Assembly: GCF_902806285.1 (NCBI RefSeq)
Contig: NZ_CADCWA010000014.1
Coordinates: forward strand, 1-32,453
DNA: 32,453 nt
Reading direction: 5' to 3'
Source of the DNA: an uncultured Sphingomonas sp.
GTDB lineage: Bacteria; Pseudomonadota; Alphaproteobacteria; Sphingomonadales; Sphingomonadaceae
Position 1 is the stretch's first letter. Every line of letters starts with the position of its first letter. Both the position numbers and the translations under genes were made by a program. The notes under the pieces are model-generated. The model did not search any database. It saw only the letters and a list, made by a program, of their open reading frames with translations, and was not told where the DNA came from. This document shows positions 2,081 through 30,238 of this stretch, piece by piece.

Positions 2081-2503
2081 ATGACGGACCTTCCGCGCAT
2101 CTTCGCAGGCATCGCCGCCGGCCTGCACCATCTGTCCGACCGGCAGCGGGTGATCGCGGGCAACATCGCCAACAGCGACACGCCCGGCTTCAAGGCGCTT
2201 ACGGTGGAGGAGCCCGACTTCTCGACGCTGCTCGGCAGGCCGTCGGGGGGGCGCCGCGTTGCCCGCCCGACCGTCGCGCTCACCGGCACCATGACGGCGC
2301 TGGGCGCGACCCGGCCGGCATCTGCGGCGCGGATCGTCGAGGAGCGGGATATCAGCGAAACCAAGCCGGACGGCAACAACGTCACCCTGGAGGACCAGTT
2401 GATGCGGATGGGGCAGGTGCAGGCGGACTATGCGACGCTGACCAACCTTTATGCCAAGCAGCTCAAGCTGCTCAAGACCGCCCTCGGACGGAGCGGCGGC
2501 TGA
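2081..2503 (+). CDS. flgB: Flagellar basal-body rod protein FlgB
   Basis: FlgB is a proximal rod subunit of the periplasmic flagellar axis, assembled with FlgC, FlgF and FliE. At 140 residues the length is normal. The N-terminal segment (QRVIAGNIANSDTPGFKA, about residues 22-40) is the signature flagellar rod/hook motif, and the C-terminal half ends in a helix (DQLMRMGQVQADYATLTNLY) as in other rod proteins. The ATG is 5 nt after the FlaEY-like stop. flgC and fliE, often adjacent to flgB, are instead about 4.5 kb away on the opposite strand, so the rod operon is split here. The gene ends just before a long inverted repeat that separates it from the convergent flgN-like gene. Confidence 0.93.
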   Translation: MTDLPRIFAGIAAGLHHLSDRQRVIAGNIANSDTPGFKALTVEEPDFSTLLGRPSGGRRVARPTVALTGTMTALGATRPASAARIVEERDISETKPDGNNVTLEDQLMRMGQVQADYATLTNLYAKQLKLLKTALGRSGG

Positions 2504-2546
2504 TCGGCTCGGGTCCGGACCCGTAAAGCGCGATGGCCGTGACGAT

Positions 2547-2635
2547 GCGGGTTCCGGCGCAGGAGGGGAAGCGAGGAGGCAGCGATGTCATCGCATCGTG
2601 ACCGATGAGCGACGCCCTCCTGCGCCGGAACCCGC
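2547..2635. terminator. Perfect 21-bp inverted repeat between convergent flgB and flgN-like genes
   Basis: The left arm (2547-2567, core GGTTCCGGCGCAGGAGGG) and right arm (2615-2635) are exact reverse complements, separated by 47 nt. It sits in the 181-nt gap between two convergent transcription units, where a bidirectional terminator is expected. There is no T-tract, so Rho-independent action is uncertain. The arm resembles the dispersed palindromes elsewhere in the window (GGCGCAGG core), so it may also be a member of that repeat family. Confidence 0.6.
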
Positions 2636-2684
2636 CCGCCGCTTCGCGGTCGATCTCGGCCACCGCGATTTGTGGGTCTGGATC

Positions 2685-3101
2685 CTAAAGGCTGGCGTTG
2701 ATCGAGATCGGCGCGGGCAGCTCGGTCCGCCGCACGCCGCCGGTTGCAGCATAGGTCTCCGAACGGTTTCCGCCCAGCCGCTTGGCTTCGGCCGCAATCG
2801 CGTCCAGCAGCTCGCGCGACAGCTCGATCCGGCGCTGGAGCATCCGGCCGTTCTCCGCCGCTGCCACCTGCAGCTCGCGGACCAGCGCCGCCAGCCCCGA
2901 GTCCGCCTCCAACATCCGTTCGCGCCAGTTCGCGTCCTCGCGGCCCGCTTCGGCGACCAGCTTCTCAAGCCGCGCGGTGAGCTTCAGCTTGGCCGCGGCC
3001 AACTCCCGCACCTCCGCGCTTCGCCCCGCCTGCAGCAGCGCCGTCTCGTCCCGCATGACCGCCACCAGCGAGCCAATGACTTCCCGAAGCGCTTCGGTCA
3101 T
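2685..3101 (-). CDS. FlgN-like flagellar chaperone (coiled-coil, 138 aa)
   Basis: This is a mostly helical protein of 138 residues with heptad-like runs (LAAAKLKLTARLEKLVAEAG, ELQVAAAENGRMLQRRIELS). It ends in a non-helical tail containing YAATGGVRR. Size, helicity and a position right after flgJ fit FlgN, the export chaperone for hook-associated proteins FlgK and FlgL. The C-terminal tail also resembles the short tails seen in FlgN-like proteins. Its ATG overlaps the flgJ stop by 4 nt (ATGA), so the two are probably translationally coupled. Sequence similarity among FlgN proteins is low, so the name rests on size, shape and position, and I leave the symbol blank. Confidence 0.65.
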   Translation of the reverse strand: MTEALREVIGSLVAVMRDETALLQAGRSAEVRELAAAKLKLTARLEKLVAEAGREDANWRERMLEADSGLAALVRELQVAAAENGRMLQRRIELSRELLDAIAAEAKRLGGNRSETYAATGGVRRTELPAPISINASL

Positions 3102-3373
3102 TCCCCTTCTCCTTGAAGCCGCAGGATCTGCTGCAGCACCGCGGGAGCAAGGCCGAGCCCGCCCCCCTTCGCGATGTCCGTTCCCAGCTGCTCGGCGAGC
3201 ACGCCGCGGAACATCTCCTCGCCGTGACCGCCGCCGAAGCCATCGTCGACCTCGACGCTTTCCAGCATCAGCTTGGCGACCGCGCCCGCGAAAACGGCCT
3301 CGAACTCGCGCGCGGTCTTCCCCGCGGCTTCCCGCCTGGGTGCGCCTGCTGAGACGCCCGCGATGTCCATCAT
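3098..3373 (-). CDS. flgJ: Rod-binding protein, FlgJ N-terminal domain type
   Basis: This 91-residue protein matches the rod-binding domain of FlgJ: AREFEAVFAGAVAKLMLESV, then GGGHGEEMFRGVLAEQLGTDIAKGGGLGLAPAVLQQIL. The muramidase domain found in gamma-proteobacterial FlgJ is absent, as is usual in alphaproteobacteria, where a separate lytic enzyme does that job. It caps the growing rod in the periplasm. The first ATG (3371-3373) overlaps the flgI TGA by 4 nt; a second ATG directly follows (3368-3370), and either could be used. The stop overlaps the start of the flgN-like gene in the same way, so flgI-flgJ-flgN-like forms a coupled trio. Confidence 0.88.
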   Translation of the reverse strand: MMDIAGVSAGAPRREAAGKTAREFEAVFAGAVAKLMLESVEVDDGFGGGHGEEMFRGVLAEQLGTDIAKGGGLGLAPAVLQQILRLQGEGE

Positions 3374-4458
3374 TGCACCTCGATCTCGGCCTGCAGCGCG
3401 CCTGCGCTCTTGACCGCCTGAAGAATGGTGATGAGGTCGCGCGGACTGACGCCCAGCGCGTTGAGCCCGGCGACCAGCTGCCGCAGGGTCGCGCCTTCCA
3501 TCATCGCCAGCGAGCGCCCGCTGCCATCGTCGACCTCGACCGCCGTGCGCGGCACCACCGCCGTGCCGCCGCCGCCAAGCGGCTCGGGCTGAACGGCTTG
3601 CGGGCTTTCCGCGACGCTGATCGTCAGCCCGCCCTGCGCCACCGCGACCGGGCTGAGCTTGACGTCCGCGGTCATCACCACCGTGCCCGATGCCTCGTTG
3701 ACGATGACCCGCGCGGGCTGATCGACCTGGACGGGAAGGTTCTCGACCTGGGTATAAAGGTCCACCAGCGGCAGCCCGGCCGCGCGCAGCTCCACCGTGG
3801 CGGGATCGAGCACCGCCGCCGCACCGGGAAAGCGGCCCTCGATCGCTCCGGCGATGCGCTGCGCGGTGGTGAAGTCGGGGTTGCGCAGCGCCAGCTTCAG
3901 CCGCGTCGCCGAACGGAGGTCGTACGCGACTTCCCGCTCGACGATCGCGCCGCCGGCGATCCTGGCGGAGGTCATCACCCCGCGGCCGACCTTGGCCGCC
4001 GCGCCCTGCGCCTTGAAGCCGGACACGGCCACCGACCCTTGCGCCATTGCGTAAACCTGACCGTCCAGCCCGCGCAGCGGCGAGGCGAGCAGCGTTCCGC
4101 CCTGCAGGCTGGAGGCGTCGCCCATCGCGGACACCTGCACATCGATCGTCGAACCCGCGCGCGCGAACGGCGGCAAGGTCGCGGTAACCGTCACCGCCGC
4201 CACGTTCTGGATGCGCATGTCGCTGCCGCGCACGTTGACACCGAGCCGCTCGAGCATGGCCTGCAGCGACTCCTCGGTGAACGGGCTGTTGCGCAGCCGG
4301 TCGCCGGTGCCGGCCAGGCCGACCACCAAGCCGTAGCCGATCAGCTGGTTGGCCCGCACATTCTCGACCGAGACGATATCCTTGATCCGCGGGGCAGCCT
4401 GCGCCTCCCGGGCCAGCAGCGCCGACCCGGCGATCAGCAAGACGGTGGGAAAGCGCAT
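3370..4458 (-). CDS. flgI: Flagellar P-ring protein FlgI
   Basis: FlgI forms the P-ring around the rod in the peptidoglycan layer. The 362-residue length is typical. A Sec signal peptide is visible (hydrophobic VLLIAGSALLA, likely cut after AQA at residue 21). The mature start RIKDIVSVENVRANQLIGYG and the GLVVGLAGTGD motif are hallmarks of the family; further conserved runs are NVAAVTVTATLPPF and RVIVNEASGTVVM. The C-terminus (LNALGVSPRDLITILQAVKSAGAL) is also canonical. It heads the leftward unit flgI-flgJ-flgN-like, with a 97-nt gap upstream to flhB that contains a palindrome at 4513-4527. Confidence 0.96.
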   Translation of the reverse strand: MRFPTVLLIAGSALLAREAQAAPRIKDIVSVENVRANQLIGYGLVVGLAGTGDRLRNSPFTEESLQAMLERLGVNVRGSDMRIQNVAAVTVTATLPPFARAGSTIDVQVSAMGDASSLQGGTLLASPLRGLDGQVYAMAQGSVAVSGFKAQGAAAKVGRGVMTSARIAGGAIVEREVAYDLRSATRLKLALRNPDFTTAQRIAGAIEGRFPGAAAVLDPATVELRAAGLPLVDLYTQVENLPVQVDQPARVIVNEASGTVVMTADVKLSPVAVAQGGLTISVAESPQAVQPEPLGGGGTAVVPRTAVEVDDGSGRSLAMMEGATLRQLVAGLNALGVSPRDLITILQAVKSAGALQAEIEVQ

Positions 4459-4512
4459 AACAGCCCCTCATGCGCGGATGCGCCCGCACTACTCATCTTA
4501 TAGAAGGCGCTG

Positions 4513-4527
4513 CGGCAAATCTTGCCG
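4513..4527. promoter_or_regulatory. Perfect palindrome CGGCAAATCTTGCCG upstream of flgI (candidate operator)
   Basis: This is a 6-bp perfect inverted repeat (CGGCAA/TTGCCG) around a 3-nt centre, 55-69 nt upstream of the flgI start, in the only gap within the leftward flagellar block. A close variant sits at 7416-7430 between flgC and fliN. Its position suggests a binding site for a flagellar regulator. It recalls the ftr enhancer elements bound by FlbD in Caulobacter, but that comparison is from memory and unverified. Confidence 0.5.
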
Positions 4528-4555
4528 TACGCCCGCAATTGCCGCCGGCCCGCCG

Positions 4556-5620
4556 TCACCGCCGGGCGCGGGCGAGCTCCATCACATAGCTGATGATCTC
4601 GGCCACGGCCGCATAATGCTCGAGCGGGATCGGCCGGTCGACCTCCGCGCTGGCGTAGAGCGCGCGGGCCAGCGGCGGGCTTTCGACGATCGGCACCTTG
4701 TGCTCGCCCGCGACCTCGCGGATGCGCAGGGCCAGCAGGTCGGCGCCCTTGGCGACCACCACCGGCGCGCGCATGGCGCCATGGTCGTAGCGCAGCGCCA
4801 CCGCATAATGGGTCGGGTTGGTGAGGATCACGCTGGCGGTGGGCACCGCGGCCATGATCCGGCTGCGCACCCGGGCCGCACCGATCTGCCGCTGGCGGGC
4901 CTTCACGGCAGGATCGCCGTCGTTCTGCTTGTGCTCGTCGCGGACCTCCTGCAGCGACATGCGCATCCGATTGAGAAAAGCGCGGTGCTGCCAGACGAAA
5001 TCAAAGGCGGCGATCGCGGCGACCAGCAGCAGCACGGAACGGAGCATGTCGGCGACGAGCGTGCCCGCGACCCGGGCGATGCCCAGCGGATGGAGGCCTA
5101 CCAGCTGTTCCGTTCCCGCCAGCCGCGGCTGCAGGATGGCGACGCAGACCGCCAGCACCGCCGCGCACTTGGCGACGGTCTTGACGAACTCCACCAGACC
5201 CTGCTTGCCGAAGGTGCGGGTAAAGCTCGCCACCGGGTTCACCCGCGACCATTTGGGCTTCAGCCGCGCGGCGGCGAGCGTCGGCCGGCCTTGCGCGAAG
5301 GCGATCAGGCAAGCAAAGCCGAACAGCGCGCCCAGCAGGGGCAGCAGCGTTGCGGCGACCTCGCCCAGCAGGCCGCCGGTGAAATGCGTCGCATCGCCGG
5401 TATCGACGCGCAGGCGGCCGGCGCTGCGCCACAGGTCGGCCGACAGCTCGGCAAGTTCAACCAGGACGGACGCGCCGAGCGTTCCTCCGGCCGCCCACAT
5501 GCCCAGCAGCATGACCGCGTGCCGCATCTCCGGCGAAGTGGCGACCTCGCCCCGCTTGCGCGCGTCGTCCAGGCGCTTGGGCGTCGGGTCGTGGGTCTTG
5601 CCCTCCTTGTCCTCAGACAT
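4556..5620 (-). CDS. flhB: Flagellar export apparatus protein FlhB
   Basis: FlhB is the substrate-specificity switch of the flagellar type III export gate in the inner membrane. The N-terminus is canonical (GKTHDPTPKRLDDARKRGEVATSPE), followed by four hydrophobic segments. The autocleavage motif NPTH is intact at residues 268-271, followed by YAVALRYDHG and the conserved GADLLALRIREVA and PPLARALY. The length of 354 is normal. Its ATG (5618-5620) overlaps the end of fliR by 8 nt, indicating coupling. It is the last gene of flgC-fliE-fliQ-fliR-flhB. flhA, normally its partner, is not in the window. Confidence 0.96.
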   Translation of the reverse strand: MSEDKEGKTHDPTPKRLDDARKRGEVATSPEMRHAVMLLGMWAAGGTLGASVLVELAELSADLWRSAGRLRVDTGDATHFTGGLLGEVAATLLPLLGALFGFACLIAFAQGRPTLAAARLKPKWSRVNPVASFTRTFGKQGLVEFVKTVAKCAAVLAVCVAILQPRLAGTEQLVGLHPLGIARVAGTLVADMLRSVLLLVAAIAAFDFVWQHRAFLNRMRMSLQEVRDEHKQNDGDPAVKARQRQIGAARVRSRIMAAVPTASVILTNPTHYAVALRYDHGAMRAPVVVAKGADLLALRIREVAGEHKVPIVESPPLARALYASAEVDRPIPLEHYAAVAEIISYVMELARARR

Positions 5621-6383
5621 GGACCCACCCGCCGCTCAGCCACTCCGCGAAACGGTCGGCGAACAGGCTCAACATGGCCCCGGCGGTGACCGCCAGCAGC
5701 GACAGGCCGAGCAGCAGGTTGAGCGGCTGGACGATGAAGAAGATCTGGATCTGGGGCGCCAGTCGCGAGGCGAAGCCCACCGCGACGCTGAACACCATCC
5801 CATAGATCATGAACGGCGCGGCGAGGCTGACTGCCAGCAGCGTGGCCTTGCCCGCGGTGGCGCTTGCCAGGCTTGCCCAGTCGGCGGCGTTCGGGACGCT
5901 GCCCGCGGGGAACAGCTGATAGGAGCCGACGATCGCGCTGATCCATAGATGGTGCACGTTGAACGCGAAGCAGAGCAGGGCCGCGGCAACCGCGAACCAT
6001 TTGGCCAGCACCGGCGCCTGCCCGTTCACCGACGGATCCCACACCAGCGCGGTGGTGAGGCCGATCTGCAGGCTGACCAGCGACCCCGCCATCGCCGCCG
6101 CCTGGAAGAAGATCCGCACCAGCATGCCGAAGGCCAAGCCGGTCAGCAGCTCGGCCAGCACCGTGCCGAGCAGCGCCACGTCCGCCTGCGCCGCCAGCGG
6201 CGTAACCGCCCGCCGCAGCAGGCCGAACAGCGCAGCGGTCATGCCCACCGCAAGCAGCAGGCGCACCTGTCCCGGCACCGCCTCCTCTGAGAAGACCGGC
6301 AGCAGCATCAGCACCGCGCCGATCCGGGCGAACAGGATCAGGAACGCCGTCGCCAGCAGCGGCAGCTCGGCCGCGAACGCCAT
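5613..6383 (-). CDS. fliR: Flagellar export gate protein FliR
   Basis: FliR is an inner-membrane export-gate component that assembles with FliP and FliQ. The 256 residues hold about six hydrophobic segments. Typical family features are the N-terminal LLATAFLILFARIGAVLMLLPVF, then PGQVRLLLAVGMTAAL, the ELLTGLAFGMLVRIFFQAA region and QIGLTTALVWDPS. The start ATG (6381-6383) is 1 nt from the fliQ stop, and its 3' end overlaps the flhB start by 8 nt. The order fliQ-fliR-flhB is common. Confidence 0.95.
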   Translation of the reverse strand: MAFAAELPLLATAFLILFARIGAVLMLLPVFSEEAVPGQVRLLLAVGMTAALFGLLRRAVTPLAAQADVALLGTVLAELLTGLAFGMLVRIFFQAAAMAGSLVSLQIGLTTALVWDPSVNGQAPVLAKWFAVAAALLCFAFNVHHLWISAIVGSYQLFPAGSVPNAADWASLASATAGKATLLAVSLAAPFMIYGMVFSVAVGFASRLAPQIQIFFIVQPLNLLLGLSLLAVTAGAMLSLFADRFAEWLSGGWVHV

Positions 6384-6384
6384 G

Positions 6385-6648
6385 TCAGCCCGCGACGATG
6401 CGGTCGCGCATCAGCTGGGTGAAACTGCCCATCGCCTGCCCCATCATCGGCAAGGTCATCAGCAGCACCATGCCGAGCACGAGCAGCTTGGGCACAAAGG
6501 TCAGCGTCATCTCCTGAACCTGGGTGAGCGCCTGCAACAGGCCGATCACCACCCCGGTGATCAAGGAGGCGATCAGCAACGGACCTGCGACCGCGATCAG
6601 CAGCAGCAGCGCGGCACGGGTGAGTTCCATGACGTCGGACGCGCTCAT
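6385..6648 (-). CDS. fliQ: Flagellar export gate protein FliQ
   Basis: FliQ is a small two-helix membrane subunit of the export gate. At 87 residues, with two hydrophobic helices (AALLLLIAVAGPLLIASLITGVVIGLLQA and the later LLVLGMVLLMTLP run) joined by a QALTQVQEMTLTFVPK loop, it matches the family exactly; the loop is strongly conserved. The start at 6648 is 3 nt from the fliE stop. fliP, which normally precedes fliQ, is missing here; fliE takes its place. Confidence 0.95.
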   Translation of the reverse strand: MSASDVMELTRAALLLLIAVAGPLLIASLITGVVIGLLQALTQVQEMTLTFVPKLLVLGMVLLMTLPMMGQAMGSFTQLMRDRIVAG

Positions 6649-6651
6649 CGC

Positions 6652-6966
6652 TCAGATCTGCATCCGCATGATGTCTTGGTAGGCGTTGACCACCCGGTCC
6701 CGCACCGCGACCACCGTTTCGAGCGCTGTTTCCGCGGCGCCGATGGCGGTCACCACGTCGATGAGGTCCCCCTTGCCAGCGATCTGCTGCGCAGTCGCCG
6801 TTTCCGCCGCGCGCAGGCCCTCGGCCGCGGGCTTGACCAGTCCGTCCACCATCGCCGCAAAGCCGCTTGTTCCGGCTTCAGTCGTCGGCGGAGCAGCCGC
6901 CGCCCGGGCTGCGGTGCCGAGGACGCGGCCATAGGCGCTGGCCGCGTCGAGCGCGTTCAAGGACAT
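6652..6966 (-). CDS. fliE: Flagellar hook-basal body protein FliE
   Basis: FliE joins the MS-ring to the proximal rod. The 104-residue protein has a variable N-terminus and the conserved C-terminal half (about residues 60-104: GDLIDVVTAIGAAETALETVVAVRD, then RVVNAYQDIMRMQI). The terminal YQDIMRMQI is diagnostic. It lies between flgC (15 nt upstream) and fliQ (3 nt downstream), consistent with a flgC-fliE-fliQ-fliR-flhB operon. Confidence 0.93.
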   Translation of the reverse strand: MSLNALDAASAYGRVLGTAARAAAAPPTTEAGTSGFAAMVDGLVKPAAEGLRAAETATAQQIAGKGDLIDVVTAIGAAETALETVVAVRDRVVNAYQDIMRMQI

Positions 6967-6981
6967 GTTCGATTGCTCCCC

Positions 6982-7371
6982 TTATTTGATGAGGTCGATC
7001 GTGCGCAGCGCCATGCTGCGCGCCGCATCGATGGCGTTGAGGTTGGATTCATAGCTGCGCTGCGCCGCCTTCATGTCGGCGGTCTCAACCAGGCTGTTGA
7101 CGTTGGGCTTCAGCACGTAACCGTTCGCGTCCGCCGCCGGATGGCCCGGCTGGTAGGTCCGCTGGAACTCGCTCCGATCCGTCTCGATCGACCGGACCTG
7201 GACCCCGCCCTCGTCCGGCCGGAGCACGGCGAGCTTGCGCCGGTAAGGCGTTCCGCCCGGAGTGCCGGCCACCGAGTCCGCGTTGGCGAGGTTCTCCGCG
7301 ATCACCCGCATGCGCAGGCTTTGCGCACGCAGGGCGGAGCCCGAGATGCCGGTGATCGCCTTCAAGTCCAT
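6982..7371 (-). CDS. flgC: Flagellar basal-body rod protein FlgC
   Basis: FlgC is a proximal rod subunit. The N-terminal rod motif SLRMRVIAENLANADSVAGTPGG (about residues 19-41) and the C-terminal region (GYVLKPNVNSLVETADMKAAQRSYESNLNAI, ending SMALRTIDLIK) are typical, and the length of 129 is near normal. It is the first gene of the leftward flagellar operon and diverges from fliN across a 118-nt gap that holds a candidate operator at 7416-7430. Confidence 0.95.
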   Translation of the reverse strand: MDLKAITGISGSALRAQSLRMRVIAENLANADSVAGTPGGTPYRRKLAVLRPDEGGVQVRSIETDRSEFQRTYQPGHPAADANGYVLKPNVNSLVETADMKAAQRSYESNLNAIDAARSMALRTIDLIK

Positions 7372-11662: not shown

Positions 11663-11701
11663 TTCCGGCGGCTCCCCCGGGCCGTCTTAAGGAGACAGAT
11701 G

Positions 11702-11884
11702 ATGGCAAGCTTGATCGCAAGCACCGCGAAGCGTGGCTTCGCGGCAATGGATCCGCAACGGCAACGCGAGATCGCCAGCAAGGGCGGCAAGGCCAGCGGC
11801 GGCAATTTCGCTCACGACCGGGATCGGGCGGCCGCGGCCGGGCGCGAGGGCGGCAAGGCGAGCCGGGTCCGCATCGAAGCATGA
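11702..11884 (+). CDS. KGG-motif general stress protein
   Basis: This 60-residue hydrophilic protein carries the repeated motif of the stress-induced KGG family: GFAAMDPQRQREIASKGGKA and then AAAAGREGGKASRV. Family members, such as Bacillus GsiB-like and ConE-like short proteins, are induced by general stress; biochemical role is poorly defined. An AAGGAG site ends 7 nt before the second of two tandem ATGs, so I use 11702; the first ATG at 11699 is too close. A candidate EcfG promoter precedes it. Confidence 0.85.
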   Translation: MASLIASTAKRGFAAMDPQRQREIASKGGKASGGNFAHDRDRAAAAGREGGKASRVRIEA

Positions 11885-11977: not shown

Positions 11978-12003
11978 GGAACCCGAATCGGCCCTTTGTT
12001 GTT
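11978..12003 (+). promoter_or_regulatory. Candidate EcfG-type promoter upstream of the GT-Glf fusion gene
   Basis: A perfect -35 GGAAC (11978-11982) is followed by 17 nt and TGTT (12000-12003), one base off the CGTT -10. The start codon is 42 nt downstream with a GAGGTG ribosome-binding site at about 12031. The match is weaker in the more critical -10 element than at the KGG gene. Confidence 0.35.
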
Positions 12004-12044: not shown

Positions 12045-14414
12045 ATGTTCGAGAGTGTCGGCGTTCGCGGTCAAGGTAACGTTCCTGTGCCGGCCTCCCC
12101 GAACAACAAGACCACCCTGATCTGTTTCTCGCACCTGCGGTGGGAGTTCGTATTCCAGCGGCCGCAGCATTTGCTGAGCCGCTTCGCCAAGTCGATGCCC
12201 GTCGTGGTTTGGGAGGAGCCGGTTCCGGCAACTGTGGGCGAAGGTCCGTCGCTGGACATCCGGCCGGCGCGCAACACGCCGGGCCTAACGGTCGTGACCC
12301 CATTGCTCCCGGACGGCCTGGACGCGGCGGCGCAGCAGACGGTGCTCAAGGGCCTGCTCGACGGGTTCATCGAGACCATGTCCGGCAAGCTGATCCGCTG
12401 GTACTACACGCCCATGATGCTGCCCTTCTCGCGGCACCTGGACGCGCTGTGCACCGTCTACGACTGCATGGATGAACTCAGCGCTTTCCGCTTCGCGCCG
12501 CAGGAACTGCTCAATCTCGAGACCGAACTGCTGGAGGCGGCGGACCTGGTCTTCACCGGCGGCTACTCGCTGTACGAGGCCAAGAAGAAGCGGCACGGCG
12601 ACGTGCATCCCTTCCCCTCCTCGGTCGATCGCAAGCATTTCGGCCAGGCCCGCGGCGGCATCGCCGATCCGGCGGACCAGGCCGGCATCGCCCGTCCGCG
12701 CCTCGGCTTCTATGGCGTGATCGACGAGCGCATCGACCTCGACCTCATCGCCGCGGTGGCCGACGCCCGGCCCGACTGGCAGCTGGTGATGGTCGGCCCG
12801 GTGGTGAAGATCAGCGAGGACGACCTGCCCCGCCGCGACAACATCCACTATCTGGGCGGCAAGGGCTACGAGGAGCTGCCGGCCTACCTCGGCAATTGGG
12901 ACGTGGCGCTGATGCCGTTCGCCATCAACGAGGCGACCCGCTTCATCTCGCCGACCAAGACGCCCGAGTATCTGGCCGCCGGCAAGCCGGTGGTGTCCAC
13001 GCCGATCAAGGACGTGAAGCGCCATTACGAAAAGCTATCGGGCGTGCGCATCGCCGCCACCCCCGAGCAGTTCGTCGAGGCGTGCGAGCGGGCTCTTGCG
13101 CTCACCCGGGGCGACGACGCGTGGCTGGCGGAGGTCGACCTCCTGCTGGCGGACATGAGCTGGGACATCACCCAGGCGCGCATGGCCAAGCTGATCGACA
13201 ACGTCGTGGAACCCGCCCGCAAGATCGAGCGCCCGGCGTTCGGCGGGGGCTCGGCGGCACAAAGGGCCAGGAAGTACGACTATCTGGTCGTCGGCTGCGG
13301 CTTCGCAGGCTCGGTGCTGGCCGAGCGGCTGGCGACGCAGCACGGCGCGCGGGTGCTGATGATCGACAAGCGCGATCACATCGCCGGCAACGCGTACGAC
13401 GAGCTGAACGCGGACGGCATCCTCTACCATAAGTACGGGCCGCACATCTTCCATGCCAACTCGGACGAGATCGTCGGCTACCTGTCGCAGTTCACCGAGT
13501 GGCGGCCGTACGAGCACCGCGTGCTCGCCAACGTCCGCGACCAGCTGGTGCCCATTCCCATCAACCGCACCACGCTCAACAAGCTGTTCGACGCGAACCT
13601 CAAGACCGACGAGGACGCCGCGGCCTTCCTCGCGTCGCGCGCCGAGCCGGTGGCGGACATCCGCACCTCGGAAGATGTGGTGATCAACGCCGTCGGGCGC
13701 GAGCTCTACGAGCTGTTCTTCCAGGGCTATACCCGCAAGCAGTGGGGCCTCGACCCGAGCGAGCTCGACAAGCAGGTGACGAGCCGTATCCCGACCCGCA
13801 CCAACACCGACGACCGCTACTTCACCGACACCCACCAGATCATGCCGCTGGAGGGCTACACCCGGATGTTCGAGCGGATGCTCGACCACCCGCTGATCGA
13901 CCGGTCGCTCGGCACCGACTTCCGCGACGTCAGGCAAGAGGTCGATGCGGCGCACATCATCTACACCGGGCCGATCGACGAATATTTCGACTGGCGCTTC
14001 GGCAAGCTGCCCTACCGTTCGCTGCGGTTCGTCCATTCCACCATCGAGAAAGAGCAGTTCCAGGACGTCGCGGTGGTCAACTACCCGGATACGGAGACGC
14101 CCTATACCCGCATCAGCGAGTATAAGCACATGACCGGGCAGACCCATCCGCGGACCACCATCACGCTGGAGTATCCCAGCGCGGAGGGCGATCCCTACTA
14201 TCCGATCCCGCGGCCGGAGAACCAGACGCTGTTCAAGAAGTATGAGGCGCTGGCGGACTCCACGTCTGGCGTGACCTTTGTCGGGCGGCTGGCGACCTAC
14301 CGCTACTACAACATGGACCAGATCGTCGGACAGGCGCTCGCCACCTTCCGCCGCCTGGACCAGGCGCGCACCAAGGCCGGCGCGTCCAGTAGGGAGCTGC
14401 GCCTGGCGATCTGA
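12045..14414 (+). CDS. Fusion: GT4-like glycosyltransferase and UDP-galactopyranose mutase
   Basis: This 789-residue protein has two clear domains. Residues 1-395 or so resemble a GT-B glycosyltransferase of the TuaH type (FSHLRWEFVFQRPQHLLSRF at about 29-48; nucleotide-sugar motif SPTKTPEYLAAGKPVVSTP at about 305-323). Residues 410-789 are a full-length UDP-galactopyranose mutase (Glf): FAD motif VVGCGFAGSVLAERL near 415-429, HKYGPHIFHANSDE, GYTRKQWGLD, and GRLATYRYYNMDQIVGQA. Glf makes UDP-galactofuranose using reduced FAD. A short linker (IERPAFGGGSAAQRA) joins them. The start ATG follows a GAGGTG site; an upstream frame exists but looks non-coding. The next gene starts 19 nt later. The fusion suggests that UDP-Galf is used directly by the attached transferase; substrate and acceptor are unknown. 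Confidence 0.9.
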   Translation: MFESVGVRGQGNVPVPASPNNKTTLICFSHLRWEFVFQRPQHLLSRFAKSMPVVVWEEPVPATVGEGPSLDIRPARNTPGLTVVTPLLPDGLDAAAQQTVLKGLLDGFIETMSGKLIRWYYTPMMLPFSRHLDALCTVYDCMDELSAFRFAPQELLNLETELLEAADLVFTGGYSLYEAKKKRHGDVHPFPSSVDRKHFGQARGGIADPADQAGIARPRLGFYGVIDERIDLDLIAAVADARPDWQLVMVGPVVKISEDDLPRRDNIHYLGGKGYEELPAYLGNWDVALMPFAINEATRFISPTKTPEYLAAGKPVVSTPIKDVKRHYEKLSGVRIAATPEQFVEACERALALTRGDDAWLAEVDLLLADMSWDITQARMAKLIDNVVEPARKIERPAFGGGSAAQRARKYDYLVVGCGFAGSVLAERLATQHGARVLMIDKRDHIAGNAYDELNADGILYHKYGPHIFHANSDEIVGYLSQFTEWRPYEHRVLANVRDQLVPIPINRTTLNKLFDANLKTDEDAAAFLASRAEPVADIRTSEDVVINAVGRELYELFFQGYTRKQWGLDPSELDKQVTSRIPTRTNTDDRYFTDTHQIMPLEGYTRMFERMLDHPLIDRSLGTDFRDVRQEVDAAHIIYTGPIDEYFDWRFGKLPYRSLRFVHSTIEKEQFQDVAVVNYPDTETPYTRISEYKHMTGQTHPRTTITLEYPSAEGDPYYPIPRPENQTLFKKYEALADSTSGVTFVGRLATYRYYNMDQIVGQALATFRRLDQARTKAGASSRELRLAI

Positions 14415-14433
14415 CGCCGGGTCCAGTCGGAGC

Positions 14434-16593
14434 ATGATGACCGACACGAACCAGACCCCCACTCCGCTCCAGCTTTGGGGCGGGGTGGAATGCACCGTCG
14501 TTCGCATCGGCGACGAGTTCCGCGACCAGGTCGTGGAGACCGGGCATGCGTGCCGCTTGGGCGACCTCGACGCCATTGCCGAGCTCGGGATCAAGACCGT
14601 CCGCTACCCCATCGTGTGGGAGCGGGTCGCGCCGGAGCACCCCGACAAGCTCAACTTCGCCTGGCACGATGAACGGCTCCGCCGCTTGCGCGACCTCGGC
14701 ATCACCGTCATCGGCGGGCTGGTCCATCACGGGTCCGGCCCGAAGTACACCAGCCTGCTCGATCCCGACTTTCCGGCCAAGCTCGCGGCCTATGCCGGCC
14801 AAGTGGCGGAGCGTTATCCGTGGATCGAGCAATGGACTCCGGTCAACGAGCCGCTGACCACCGCCCGCTTCTCCTGCATGTACGGCCACTGGTACCCGCA
14901 CCGGAAGAACTTCCGCGACTTCCTGGCGGCGCTGGTCCATGAATGCCATGGTACGCTCGAGGCGATGCGCGCGATCCGGGAGGTCAACCCGGGAGCGCTG
15001 CTGGTCGTCACCGAGGATCTCGGCAAGACCTTCTCCACCCAGAGACTCGCCTATCAGGCGCGACACGAAAACCACCGCCGCTGGCTCAGCCTCGACCTGC
15101 TGACGGGGAGGGTCGATCAACAGCACCCTTTCTGGCCGATGCTGACGCAAGCGGGCTGCAAGCCCGAGGTGCTGGCCGACCTCGGCGGCGGACAGGGCGC
15201 GCCCGACCTCATCGGGATCAATCACTACCTCACGAGCGAGCGCTACCTCGACCATCGGCTGGAGCGCTACCCGGGCGTGGAGCCGGGTAGCAACGGGATC
15301 GACGGCTACGTCGACCTCGAAGCCGTGCGCATGCCGCACCTCACCGCGAAGGTCGGCCCTGCCGCTCGCCTGCGCGAGGCTTGGGACCGCTACCGCATCC
15401 CGTTGGCGGTCACCGAAGTCCACCACGGCTGCACCCGCGAGGAGCAGGTGCGCTGGTTCCACGAGGTCTGGGCCGCAGCCCAGAAGGTGCGCGACGACGG
15501 GGCCGACGTCCGCGCCGTCACTCTCTGGTCGCTGTTCGGCAACGTCGACTGGCGCTCCCTGCTGACGCGCAAGGAGGGCGTGTACGACGTCGGCGCATTC
15601 GATACCCGCGGCGGGGAGCTCCGCCCGACCATGGTCGCCAAGGCCGCCAGGGCGCTCGCGCGGGGGCAGTTGCTCGACCATCCGGTGACGCAGGGCAAGC
15701 CCTGGTGGCGCCGGCCCGAACGCTTCCACATCGGCGCCAGCCCCTGCAAGCCGCATCATCTTGGGAGCCACCCCGTGCTGATCACCGGAGCCACCGGCAC
15801 CCTCGGCCAGGCTTTTGCGCGCCTGTGCCACCATCGCGGCCTCGCTCACGTAGTCAGCGATCGGTCGATGATGGACATCACCGATGCCGGGTCGATCGAC
15901 CGGGCGCTGGACAAGCTCCAGCCGTGGGCCGTGATCAACACGGCGGGGTTCGTCCGCGTGCCGGAGGCGGAGCACCAGCCCGACGACTGCTTCCGCATCA
16001 ACACCACGGGCGCGGAGCTGCTCGCCGCGGCCTGCCACAAGCGGGGCATCCCGTTTGTCACCTTCTCGTCCGACCTGGTGTTCGACGGCCGGCTCGGCCG
16101 CCCCTATGTCGAACCCGATCCCACCAGTCCGACGTCCGTGTACGGACAAAGCAAGGCGGACGCGGAGGACCGGGTCATGGCGATCGACCCGCAGGCGCTG
16201 ATCGTCCGCACCAGCGCCTTTTTCGGCCCGTGGGACCGCCACAATTTCCTGTGGGGCACGCTCGACCGGCTGGTGAACGGCCAGGAAGTCCATGCCAGCG
16301 ACAATGCGGTGGTCAGCCCGACCTACGTGCCCGACCTGGTCCATGCCACGCTGGACCTGCTGCTCGACGGCGAGCACGGCATCTGGCACCTCGCCAACCA
16401 GGGCAGCATCAGCTGGCACGGCCTCGCCCGCGAGGTCGCCGGCCGTGCGGGCCTTTCGCCCAAGAAGATCAACGACATCGGCGGCGCCAGGGCGGACACC
16501 ACGCTCGCCACTTCCCGCGGCCAGATCCTCCGCCCGCTCGATCATGCGCTAGGTGACTTCATGCTCCACGCGGACGACCTTCCGGGGCGATAG
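14434..16593 (+). CDS. Fusion: GH1-like glycoside hydrolase and RmlD-like dTDP-4-dehydrorhamnose reductase
   Basis: This 719-residue protein has a (beta/alpha)8 glycosidase-like N-terminal half (residues about 10-430). WTPVNEPL places the acid/base Glu at E139, and LAVTEVHHG places a candidate nucleophile at E328; both fit clan GH-A, family 1-like. The C-terminal half (about 446-719) is a short-chain reductase: VLITGATGTLGQAF from residue 448, VINTAGFVRVPEAE, FVTFSSDLVFDG, and SVYGQSKADAE with Y570 and K574 as the YxxxK pair. This half resembles RmlD, the last enzyme of dTDP-rhamnose synthesis. I use the first ATG (14434); the second ATG follows directly. It is 19 nt after the GT-Glf gene, so one transcript is likely. 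Whether the glycosidase half hydrolyses, transfers, or only binds sugar is unknown. Confidence 0.87.
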   Translation: MMTDTNQTPTPLQLWGGVECTVVRIGDEFRDQVVETGHACRLGDLDAIAELGIKTVRYPIVWERVAPEHPDKLNFAWHDERLRRLRDLGITVIGGLVHHGSGPKYTSLLDPDFPAKLAAYAGQVAERYPWIEQWTPVNEPLTTARFSCMYGHWYPHRKNFRDFLAALVHECHGTLEAMRAIREVNPGALLVVTEDLGKTFSTQRLAYQARHENHRRWLSLDLLTGRVDQQHPFWPMLTQAGCKPEVLADLGGGQGAPDLIGINHYLTSERYLDHRLERYPGVEPGSNGIDGYVDLEAVRMPHLTAKVGPAARLREAWDRYRIPLAVTEVHHGCTREEQVRWFHEVWAAAQKVRDDGADVRAVTLWSLFGNVDWRSLLTRKEGVYDVGAFDTRGGELRPTMVAKAARALARGQLLDHPVTQGKPWWRRPERFHIGASPCKPHHLGSHPVLITGATGTLGQAFARLCHHRGLAHVVSDRSMMDITDAGSIDRALDKLQPWAVINTAGFVRVPEAEHQPDDCFRINTTGAELLAAACHKRGIPFVTFSSDLVFDGRLGRPYVEPDPTSPTSVYGQSKADAEDRVMAIDPQALIVRTSAFFGPWDRHNFLWGTLDRLVNGQEVHASDNAVVSPTYVPDLVHATLDLLLDGEHGIWHLANQGSISWHGLAREVAGRAGLSPKKINDIGGARADTTLATSRGQILRPLDHALGDFMLHADDLPGR

Positions 16594-28858: not shown

Positions 28859-30238
28859 ATGACCCACACATTCGACCCCACCATCCTGCGCGAATACGAC
28901 ATCCGCGGAGTCGTCGGCCACACGCTCCATGAAGCGGACGCCTACGCGCTCGGCCGCACCTTCTCCGCCCACGCCGCCGCCGAAGGCGTCAAGCGCCTCG
29001 CGGTCGGCCGCGACGGGCGCGAGCATTCGCCCCGGCTGGAGGAAGCCCTCATCCGCGGCCTGATCGAGGGCGGGGTGGACGTGGTCCGCGTCGGCCAGGG
29101 CCCCTCGCCCATGCTCTACTATGCGGTGGCTGAGCTCGACGTCGACGGCGGCATCCAGATCACCGGCAGCCACAACCCGGCCGACTACAACGGCTTCAAG
29201 ATGCTGCTCCCCAACCGCTCGGTGTTCGGCGAGGAGATCCGCTCGCTCGGTGCCCGCGCCGCCGAAGGCCGCTGGTGCGAGGGCCAGGGCACTGTCACCG
29301 ACGTCGACATCCTCGACCGGTACATCGACCGGCTCGTCCAGGATTTCTCCGGCGGCGCGTTCCGGATCGGCTGGGATGCCGGCAACGGCGCCGCGGGCCC
29401 GGCGCTCGAGAAGCTGGTCAAGCGCCTGCCGGGCGAGCACCATACCCTCTACACCGACGTCGACGGCAGCTTCCCCAACCACCATCCCGACCCGACGGTC
29501 GAGAAGAACCTCGAGGACCTTAAGCGGCTGGTCGCCGAGAAGGACCTTGACTTCGGCATCGCCTTCGACGGCGACGGCGACCGCATCGGTGCGATCGACA
29601 GCCGCGGGCGGGTCATCTGGGGCGACCAGATCGTGTCCATCCTTGCAGTGCCGGTCCTCCAGGCCGAGCCCGGCGCGACTATCATCGCCGACGTCAAGGC
29701 CAGCCAGAAGCTGTTCGACCGCATCGCCGAGCTCGGCGGCCAACCGCTGATGTGGAAGACCGGGCACAGCCTGATCAAGTCCAAGATGAAGGAAACGCAT
29801 GCGCCGCTGGCCGGCGAGATGAGCGGCCACATCTTCTTCAAGCACCGCTGGTACGGCTTCGACGACGCCCTCTACGCCGCCGTCCGCCTGATCGAGGCGG
29901 TGAGCGCATCGGGCAAGAGCCTGACCGAACTCAAGGACGAGATGCCGCAGAGCATCGTCACCCCCGAGCTGCGCTTCCCCGTCGACGAAAGCCGCAAGTT
30001 CGCGGTGATCGACGAGATCCTCGGCCGCCTGTCGAGCAGCGGCGCCCGGGTCGACCGCACCGACGGCGCCCGCGTGATGAGCGAAGACGGCTGGTGGCTG
30101 CTCCGTGCGTCCAACACGCAAGACGTGCTGGTCGCCCGCGCCGAAGCGCAGGACGAGGCAGGCCTGCAGCGGTTGATGGGGCAGATCGACGAGCAGCTGG
30201 CGGCTTCGGGGGTGGAGCGAACGGAAGGCGGGCATTGA
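28859..30238 (+). CDS. pgmG: Phosphomannomutase/phosphoglucomutase, PgmG-like
   Basis: This alpha-D-phosphohexomutase of 459 residues interconverts mannose or glucose 1- and 6-phosphates. Its phosphoserine loop is TGSHNP with Ser104, the Mg-binding loop is FDGDGDRIG, the sugar-binding loop is GEMSGHIFF, and the phosphate-binding site is in the C-terminal domain (RASNTQDVLVARAEA). PgmG of gellan-producing Sphingomonas is bifunctional and feeds surface polysaccharide precursors. It could supply sugar phosphates for the fusion-gene glycan unit 14 kb away; this is inference. Confidence 0.93.
   Translation: MTHTFDPTILREYDIRGVVGHTLHEADAYALGRTFSAHAAAEGVKRLAVGRDGREHSPRLEEALIRGLIEGGVDVVRVGQGPSPMLYYAVAELDVDGGIQITGSHNPADYNGFKMLLPNRSVFGEEIRSLGARAAEGRWCEGQGTVTDVDILDRYIDRLVQDFSGGAFRIGWDAGNGAAGPALEKLVKRLPGEHHTLYTDVDGSFPNHHPDPTVEKNLEDLKRLVAEKDLDFGIAFDGDGDRIGAIDSRGRVIWGDQIVSILAVPVLQAEPGATIIADVKASQKLFDRIAELGGQPLMWKTGHSLIKSKMKETHAPLAGEMSGHIFFKHRWYGFDDALYAAVRLIEAVSASGKSLTELKDEMPQSIVTPELRFPVDESRKFAVIDEILGRLSSSGARVDRTDGARVMSEDGWWLLRASNTQDVLVARAEAQDEAGLQRLMGQIDEQLAASGVERTEGGH

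Follow-up and report, generated by a model that had tools for sequence, protein, structure and literature searches.

Two long genes of an uncultured Sphingomonas sp. each join a nucleotide-sugar enzyme to a carbohydrate-active enzyme, raising the question of which sugar the pair handles and under what control. We analysed them in a window of 32,453 nucleotides (the whole stretch of DNA under study) from a source genome of 203 contigs that is 87% complete. An earlier note had proposed a compact galactofuranose/rhamnose glycan module; the analysis below supports the conserved pair and galactofuranose but not rhamnose, and the fusion of gene 1 is not constant. Our preferred reading, to which we give a probability of about 0.6, is that the two genes form a single operon that transfers galactofuranose (Galf) under stress control. 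The UDP-galactopyranose mutase (UGM) half of gene 1 would convert UDP-galactopyranose to UDP-Galf, and the glycosyltransferase (GT) half fused to it would most likely transfer Galf to an acceptor made in the cytosol. Gene 2 would provide an accessory cytosolic enzyme, in which a GH1 half may trim or transglycosylate a Gal- or Galf-containing intermediate and an SDR half may reduce a keto-sugar or NDP-keto-sugar other than dTDP-4-keto-rhamnose. In alphaproteobacteria the operon would begin at an EcfG promoter and would thereby be part of the general stress response.

Domains and catalytic residues of the two fusion proteins

Gene 1 (positions 12045-14414, plus strand) encodes a GT-UGM fusion of 789 aa, recognised from domain profiles and solved-structure relatives. 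Its first half, a GT-B glycosyltransferase spanning approximately residues 1-400 (12045-13244), was assigned from PF13692 (41.7 bits, cut-off 27), its structural model and Foldseek; against the teichuronic acid GT family TuaH (NF047676) it reached 78.8 bits, below the cut-off of 550. The UGM half, approximately residues 410-770 (13272-14354), passes the curated UGM family TIGR00031 with 386.8 bits (cut-off 303.75), and its best solved relative is the UGM 3hdq (E 2.5e-155), which we take to be the Deinococcus radiodurans enzyme. Unlike plain Glf, the UGM of the window is fused behind a GT-B domain, as it also is in other sphingomonads and many of the cyanobacteria seen; elsewhere the two are split. 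Gene 2 (14434-16593, plus strand) follows after 19 bp (14415-14433) and encodes a GH1-RmlD-like fusion of 719 aa, assigned from profiles, model and Foldseek. The GH1-type glycosidase half (approximately residues 12-425; 14467-15708) carries glutamates E139 and E328 and passes the Pfam GH1 family PF00232 with 46.1 bits (cut-off 22.6), and the RmlD-like SDR reductase half (approximately residues 447-719; 15772-16590), with Ser546, Tyr570 and Lys574, scores 195.1 bits against PF04321 (cut-off 27). The two adjacent two-domain fusions described in the earlier note were recovered with the same coordinates, frames and gap.

Fold prediction, which had been proposed for both proteins, succeeded for GH1-RmlD (mean pLDDT 91.1, pTM 0.91), whose model matched RmlD chains as well as GH1 chains of the PDB in a Foldseek search, but the GT-UGM model (mean pLDDT 73.3, pTM 0.52) is good in the GT half only, where most residues lie at pLDDT 75-98 except for the first 20 and the linker. 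Since this model is too weak in the UGM half, the UGM assignment rests on sequence. Foldseek matched the gene 1 model to UGM chains and to GT-B enzymes. After the UGMs, the neighbours of the GT half are MshA, sucrose- and trehalose-phosphate synthases, glycogen synthase and a polysaccharide mannosyltransferase, at 11-15% identity. Inspection by eye revealed no signal peptide or membrane segment in either protein, and both are probably cytosolic.

The claim of intact catalytic residues held in an alignment of 53 GH1-RmlD rows, from which nine plasmid rows were left out, two of them (L054 and L056) being the most deviant in the SDR half. Both GH1 glutamates are found in 53/53 rows, as are Ser546 and Tyr570, and Lys574 is found in 52/53; with the nine plasmid rows included (62 rows) the glutamates are still invariant and the Tyr and Lys become nearly invariant. 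Alignments to solved GH1s do not reach E328, which we take from its TEN-type motif to form, with E139, the acid/base and nucleophile pair of GH1. The GH1 half shares the fold and both glutamates with beta-glucosidases (PF00232, TIGR03356), but it scores only 62.1 bits against a TIGR03356 cut-off of 478.5; Asp372 (52/53 rows) stands where solved GH1s have the Glu of the DN(F/L)EW stretch, and His99 where they have the Trp of HWD. Both changed positions presumably lie near the sugar site, so the substrate may not be a beta-glucoside. Among 27 fused GT-UGM proteins, the residues that we take to be the catalytic arginines of UGM are likewise retained (Arg564 in 26/27, Arg689 and Arg748 in 27/27). 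A Caballeronia GH1-RmlD protein (L054:7989-10190) lacks the conserved Tyr and Lys of the SDR half, so its reductase may be inactive.

Recurrence and linkage of the gene pair

The pair is not confined to this genome. Among 71 genomes from the genus, one of them that of the window, GH1-RmlD occurs in 24 and GT/UGM matches in 43. Each of these 24 carries GT and/or UGM matches as well, and in 23 of them the genes are same-strand neighbours within approximately 120 nt, as judged by eye from their coordinates, in agreement with the proposal that the pair is a conserved unit. Two fragmentary genomes give partial pictures: in one (G033) the GT and GH1-RmlD lie on separate contigs and the GT match comes without a UGM, and in the other (G489) the end of a UGM is the sole GT/UGM match. 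GT/UGM matches without GH1-RmlD were seen in 19 of the 43 genomes, some of them fragmentary, and the reverse case in none. Across a class sample of 385 genomes, in which the GT search scored two candidates per genome, GH1-RmlD was present in 3 and the GT in about 6, including all 3 of the former.

A scan of species genomes gave at least 573 stretches encoding a relative, and the best 80 by similarity were kept, all of which were confirmed as GH1-RmlD fusions; because of this choice by similarity, the shares given here for the best 80 of at least 573 are not those of a fair sample. Their hosts are Sphingomonadales, Microvirga, Noviherbaspirillum and other betaproteobacteria, cyanobacteria, Pyrinomonadaceae, Chloroflexota, Geomonas and others. 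The GT and UGM lie just upstream on the same strand in 44 of the best 80 loci, fused in 22 and split in 22, with a median gap to GH1-RmlD of 55 nt and a maximum of 813. The remainder comprise 3 loci with both in other orientations, 4 with the GT only, 1 with the UGM only and 28 with neither, 4 of these 28 at contig ends. A genome-wide search covered 16 of the 28 (all except L067, L070, L080, L085, L086, L087, L089, L092, L095, L120, L131 and L139) and found the GT elsewhere in 16/16; four further loci in this search already showed the GT and are not counted among the 16. In ten of the 16 genomes there is also a UGM of bacterial type (identity 58% or more), fused to or near the GT. The other six, all betaproteobacterial, have GT matches in frames of 877-1279 aa (one also in a frame of 440 aa); four of them hold a separate UGM (40-42% identity) and two hold none.

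Copies were also found on plasmids, with 19 records covering at least 80% of gene 2, from Deinococcus, Caballeronia, Azospirillum, Gloeothece, Runella and others. Eleven plasmid loci with full-length GH1-RmlD, out of the 19 records, were analysed for their flanks: 6 hold both GT and UGM, 2 (Azospirillum, Runella) the GT only, and 3 neither (Microvirga VF16, D. deserti, Novosphingobium). In a tree of 78 GT domains, sphingomonads and cyanobacteria stand apart, and the bacterial fused state must have changed at least 3 times. The idea of an invariable two-gene unit with constant fusion was rejected, as GT and UGM are split in some loci, and GH1-RmlD at another site, or GT/UGM without GH1-RmlD, is also seen.

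One alternative is that the genes are chance neighbours or hitch-hikers on mobile DNA with no joint function, as their sporadic spread, the 19 plasmid records and the three plasmid loci whose flanks lack both GT and UGM could suggest. This we regard as highly improbable given the co-occurrence in 24/24 genomes of the genus and in 16/16 of the genomes followed up, the presence of the GT in 3/3 GH1-RmlD genomes of the class sample against about 6/385 overall, and the repeated fusion of GT and UGM, bearing in mind that these counts are not independent events because the genomes are related.

Some copies depart from the common layout. In Ensifer and Mesorhizobium (L059:7977-9347, L060:7989-9692) we observed the GT, the UGM and the GH1 half with no detectable RmlD half; these loci count against our preferred reading, as do the 19 genus genomes with GT/UGM alone and the five plasmid loci whose flanks lack the UGM or both partners. 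On a plasmid of Sphingomonas daechungensis (NZ_CP060781.1, L048:6551-11138) the GT and GH1-RmlD genes are broken into separate frames, with a stop inside one GT match on the same contig; these interruptions may reflect decay or record errors.

Galactofuranose and rhamnose as candidate sugars

Galactofuranose is the best-supported theme of the gene pair, and this part of the earlier proposal gained ground from the UGM score given above, from a second kind of UGM partner and from galE-type genes nearby. In two Noviherbaspirillum loci (L101:4090-6816, L112:4165-6864), the partner fused to the same GT is a flavoprotein (PF01593) in place of a bacterial UGM. The best solved relatives of the L112 flavoprotein are UGMs, presumably fungal and protozoan ones, including 3ute (E 6.7e-49), which we take to be the Aspergillus fumigatus enzyme; the L101 flavoprotein matches the same NCBI families. 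Both may be called eukaryotic-type UGM-like, and as those NCBI families are named hypothetical, UGM activity is here a prediction from likeness. The eukaryotic type thus fills the place of the UGM behind the same GT in these two loci, but it is absent from the window and far in sequence from the bacterial type (window UGM against 3ute, E 2.2e-4 only). If the activity holds, the association of two distant kinds of UGM with one GT family makes UDP-galactofuranose the likely donor. In 11 cyanobacterial loci a galE-type gene lies downstream of GH1-RmlD on the same strand, within approximately 400 nt, and 3/3 of those tested exceed the galE cut-off; a galT lies near the L112 copy and a galactokinase-type gene near another copy (L102).

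Such Leloir-type neighbours could also point to the breakdown and salvage of galactosides, with GH1 and GH2 enzymes freeing galactose, Leloir enzymes recycling it and UGM as a side branch. A GH2-type cluster in 35 of the best 80 loci (of at least 573), with 3/3 tested members matching Pfam GH2, is consistent with this alternative as well as with our preferred reading. We nonetheless consider it improbable, as GT/UGM occur without GH1-RmlD in the 19 of 43 genus genomes noted above, and the fusion of GT to UGM suggests synthesis.

The rhamnose half of the proposed module fared less well. The domain identities given in the earlier note stand for the GT, the UGM, the GH1 and an RmlD-like fold, but the RmlD-like half reaches 194.1 bits against the curated rmlD family TIGR01214, under the cut-off of 224.05. 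Its resemblance to RmlD lies in the fold (1vl0, TM-score 0.87 by target length), the glycine motif and the Ser-Tyr-Lys residues, which correspond, with Ser546 in place of Thr, to the catalytic T104, Y128 and K132 that the available text of one study gives for Salmonella RmlD (PMC4832382). It differs in being joined to GH1 and in its substrate contacts. Of the dTDP-rhamnose contacts T65, V67, Y106 and W153 of Salmonella RmlD, as listed in the accessible part of PMC9415975, three are replaced, by V507 (53/53 rows), L548 (51/53) and A595 (52/53) for T65, Y106 and W153, and only V67 is kept, as V509 in 48/53 rows. The same genome carries an rmlC on another contig (C168), identified by family search, beside frames read by eye as rmlA, rmlB and rmlD; this rmlD shares 33% identity with the fused half. 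In the flanks of the best 80 loci (of at least 573) no rmlB was found, the top matches being galE-type at no more than 112 bits. Rhamnose synthesis by the fused domain is thus not supported.

A surface glycan module producing both galactofuranose and dTDP-rhamnose, as first envisaged, would fit the joint presence of UGM and RmlD-like folds, and papers on capsule and O-antigen loci, in the parts available, name both enzymes. Given the score and contacts of the fused half, the rml genes elsewhere and the lack of rmlB in those flanks, such a module is unlikely, and the annotated neighbours in the window also argue against it, being mostly flagellar, carboxylase, RuvAB and YebC genes, yet with one phosphohexomutase-type gene (28859-30238).

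An EcfG-type promoter-like site and proposed stress control

Beyond the content of the earlier note, we found a new element, an EcfG-type promoter-like site (GGAAC-N17-TGTT; 11978-12003, plus strand) 67 bp before the start of gene 1. It is the sole match to GGAAC-N15-18-[CT]GTT on both strands of the window. The accessible text on Sphingomonas melonis gives the EcfG motif as GGAAC-N17-20-GTT and reports its enrichment in the 100 bp nearest the start (PMC6599016), and that on Sphingopyxis granuli gives GGAAC-N16-CGTT (PMC7083833); as far as these texts extend, the window resembles the EcfG/PhyR regulons of S. melonis Fr1 and Sphingopyxis granuli in its motif and in a distance below 100 bp. NepR, the anti-sigma factor of the EcfG system, was also found in the genome, and the predicted motif suggests that gene 1 may be under EcfG control.

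Counting the N16-17 motif within 300 nt before the GT gene, we found it in 32/41 alphaproteobacterial loci, several with approximate gene starts, as against 87/20000 random stretches of the same loci (0.44%) and 89/20500 shuffled upstreams. The count omits two apparent duplicates (L032 and L037, of the L061 and L064 genomes), three loci with a contig edge or unclear start (L039, L042, L043), and L048, though the last has the motif. Outside the alphaproteobacteria the motif was seen at 0/21 cyanobacterial and acidobacterial loci, 0/16 mainly betaproteobacterial loci and 0/7 non-alphaproteobacterial plasmid starts; these sets, like the 41 rows, consist of related genomes, so that a Fisher value for the comparison is no true probability. 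The form of the motif is kept across lineages while spacers and distances differ, and in some cases it lies farther than the usual 100 bp (range 127-170: Microvirga approximately 147 nt, L031/L033 approximately 169, L051 127). The motif also precedes GT-UGM genes of genomes without GH1-RmlD (L029, L030, L034, L035). Against stress control count its absence from 9/41 loci, the longer distances just given and its presence before no more than 4/10 solitary alphaproteobacterial GH1-RmlD genes. We found no support for a second promoter in front of gene 2, as the motif precedes GH1-RmlD in 1/12 loci that have the GT upstream.

If the operon is indeed induced under stress, the fate of the transferred sugar allows for more than one proposal. 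Galf is classically a surface sugar, discussed mostly in pathogens. Exopolysaccharide or lipopolysaccharide might be decorated with Galf during stress, with the sugar attached in the cytosol and general machinery handling export; this is a tentative sub-case of our preferred reading, and the odds of the two overlap. The list of top EcfG-regulated genes of S. melonis, in the accessible part of PMC6599016, contains an exopolysaccharide biosynthesis gene and several glycosyltransferases, which would agree with such decoration. Against it, as against our preferred reading as a whole, no export gene and no transporter, flippase or polymerase gene occurs among the annotated neighbours in the annotated part of the window, and the structural neighbours of the GT half include small-molecule enzymes; as these neighbours are a mixture of small-molecule and polysaccharide enzymes at 11-15% identity, they carry little weight. 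A bolder and rather doubtful proposal is that the product would be a soluble intracellular galactofuranoside serving as a protectant in a horizontally spread stress system, from Sphingomonas to Nostoc and Deinococcus, for which bacterial- and eukaryotic-type UGMs would have been recruited separately and in which the GH1-RmlD glycosidase-reductase would finish or recycle the galactofuranoside.

The component families of the module are known; the combination and the GH1-RmlD family are undescribed as far as searched, a search by title and abstract having returned no description of the module, with most subscription papers outside its scope. In the main texts of the EcfG regulon papers (PMC6599016, PMC7083833), as available, the word galactopyranose is absent. 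The D. radiodurans UGM gene dr_A0367 is lower in a dsr11 RNA deletion according to the accessible text of PMC7022480, which neither supports nor opposes stress control.

Should an operon for stress-controlled Galf transfer be the right reading, it would link the supply of UDP-Galf to the general stress response and point to a role of galactofuranose in stress survival. It would also establish a family of GH1-reductase fusions with a substrate open to direct search. Many of the bacteria bearing the module are, we presume, soil and desert-crust dwellers. The joining of a single GT family to two such different kinds of UGM would be an unusual natural clue to the donor sugar of that family.

Two features of the upstream part of the window are recorded here in their own right. 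A gene for a small KGG-repeat stress protein (11699-11884, plus strand; PF10685, 66.3 bits) was considered as a module member, but its membership is not supported, as a KGG frame occurs in 3/15 Sphingomonas-type loci, that of the window among them. Farther upstream, positions 2081-7371 hold flagellar genes for an FlhB-type export protein, rod proteins and a rod-binding protein.
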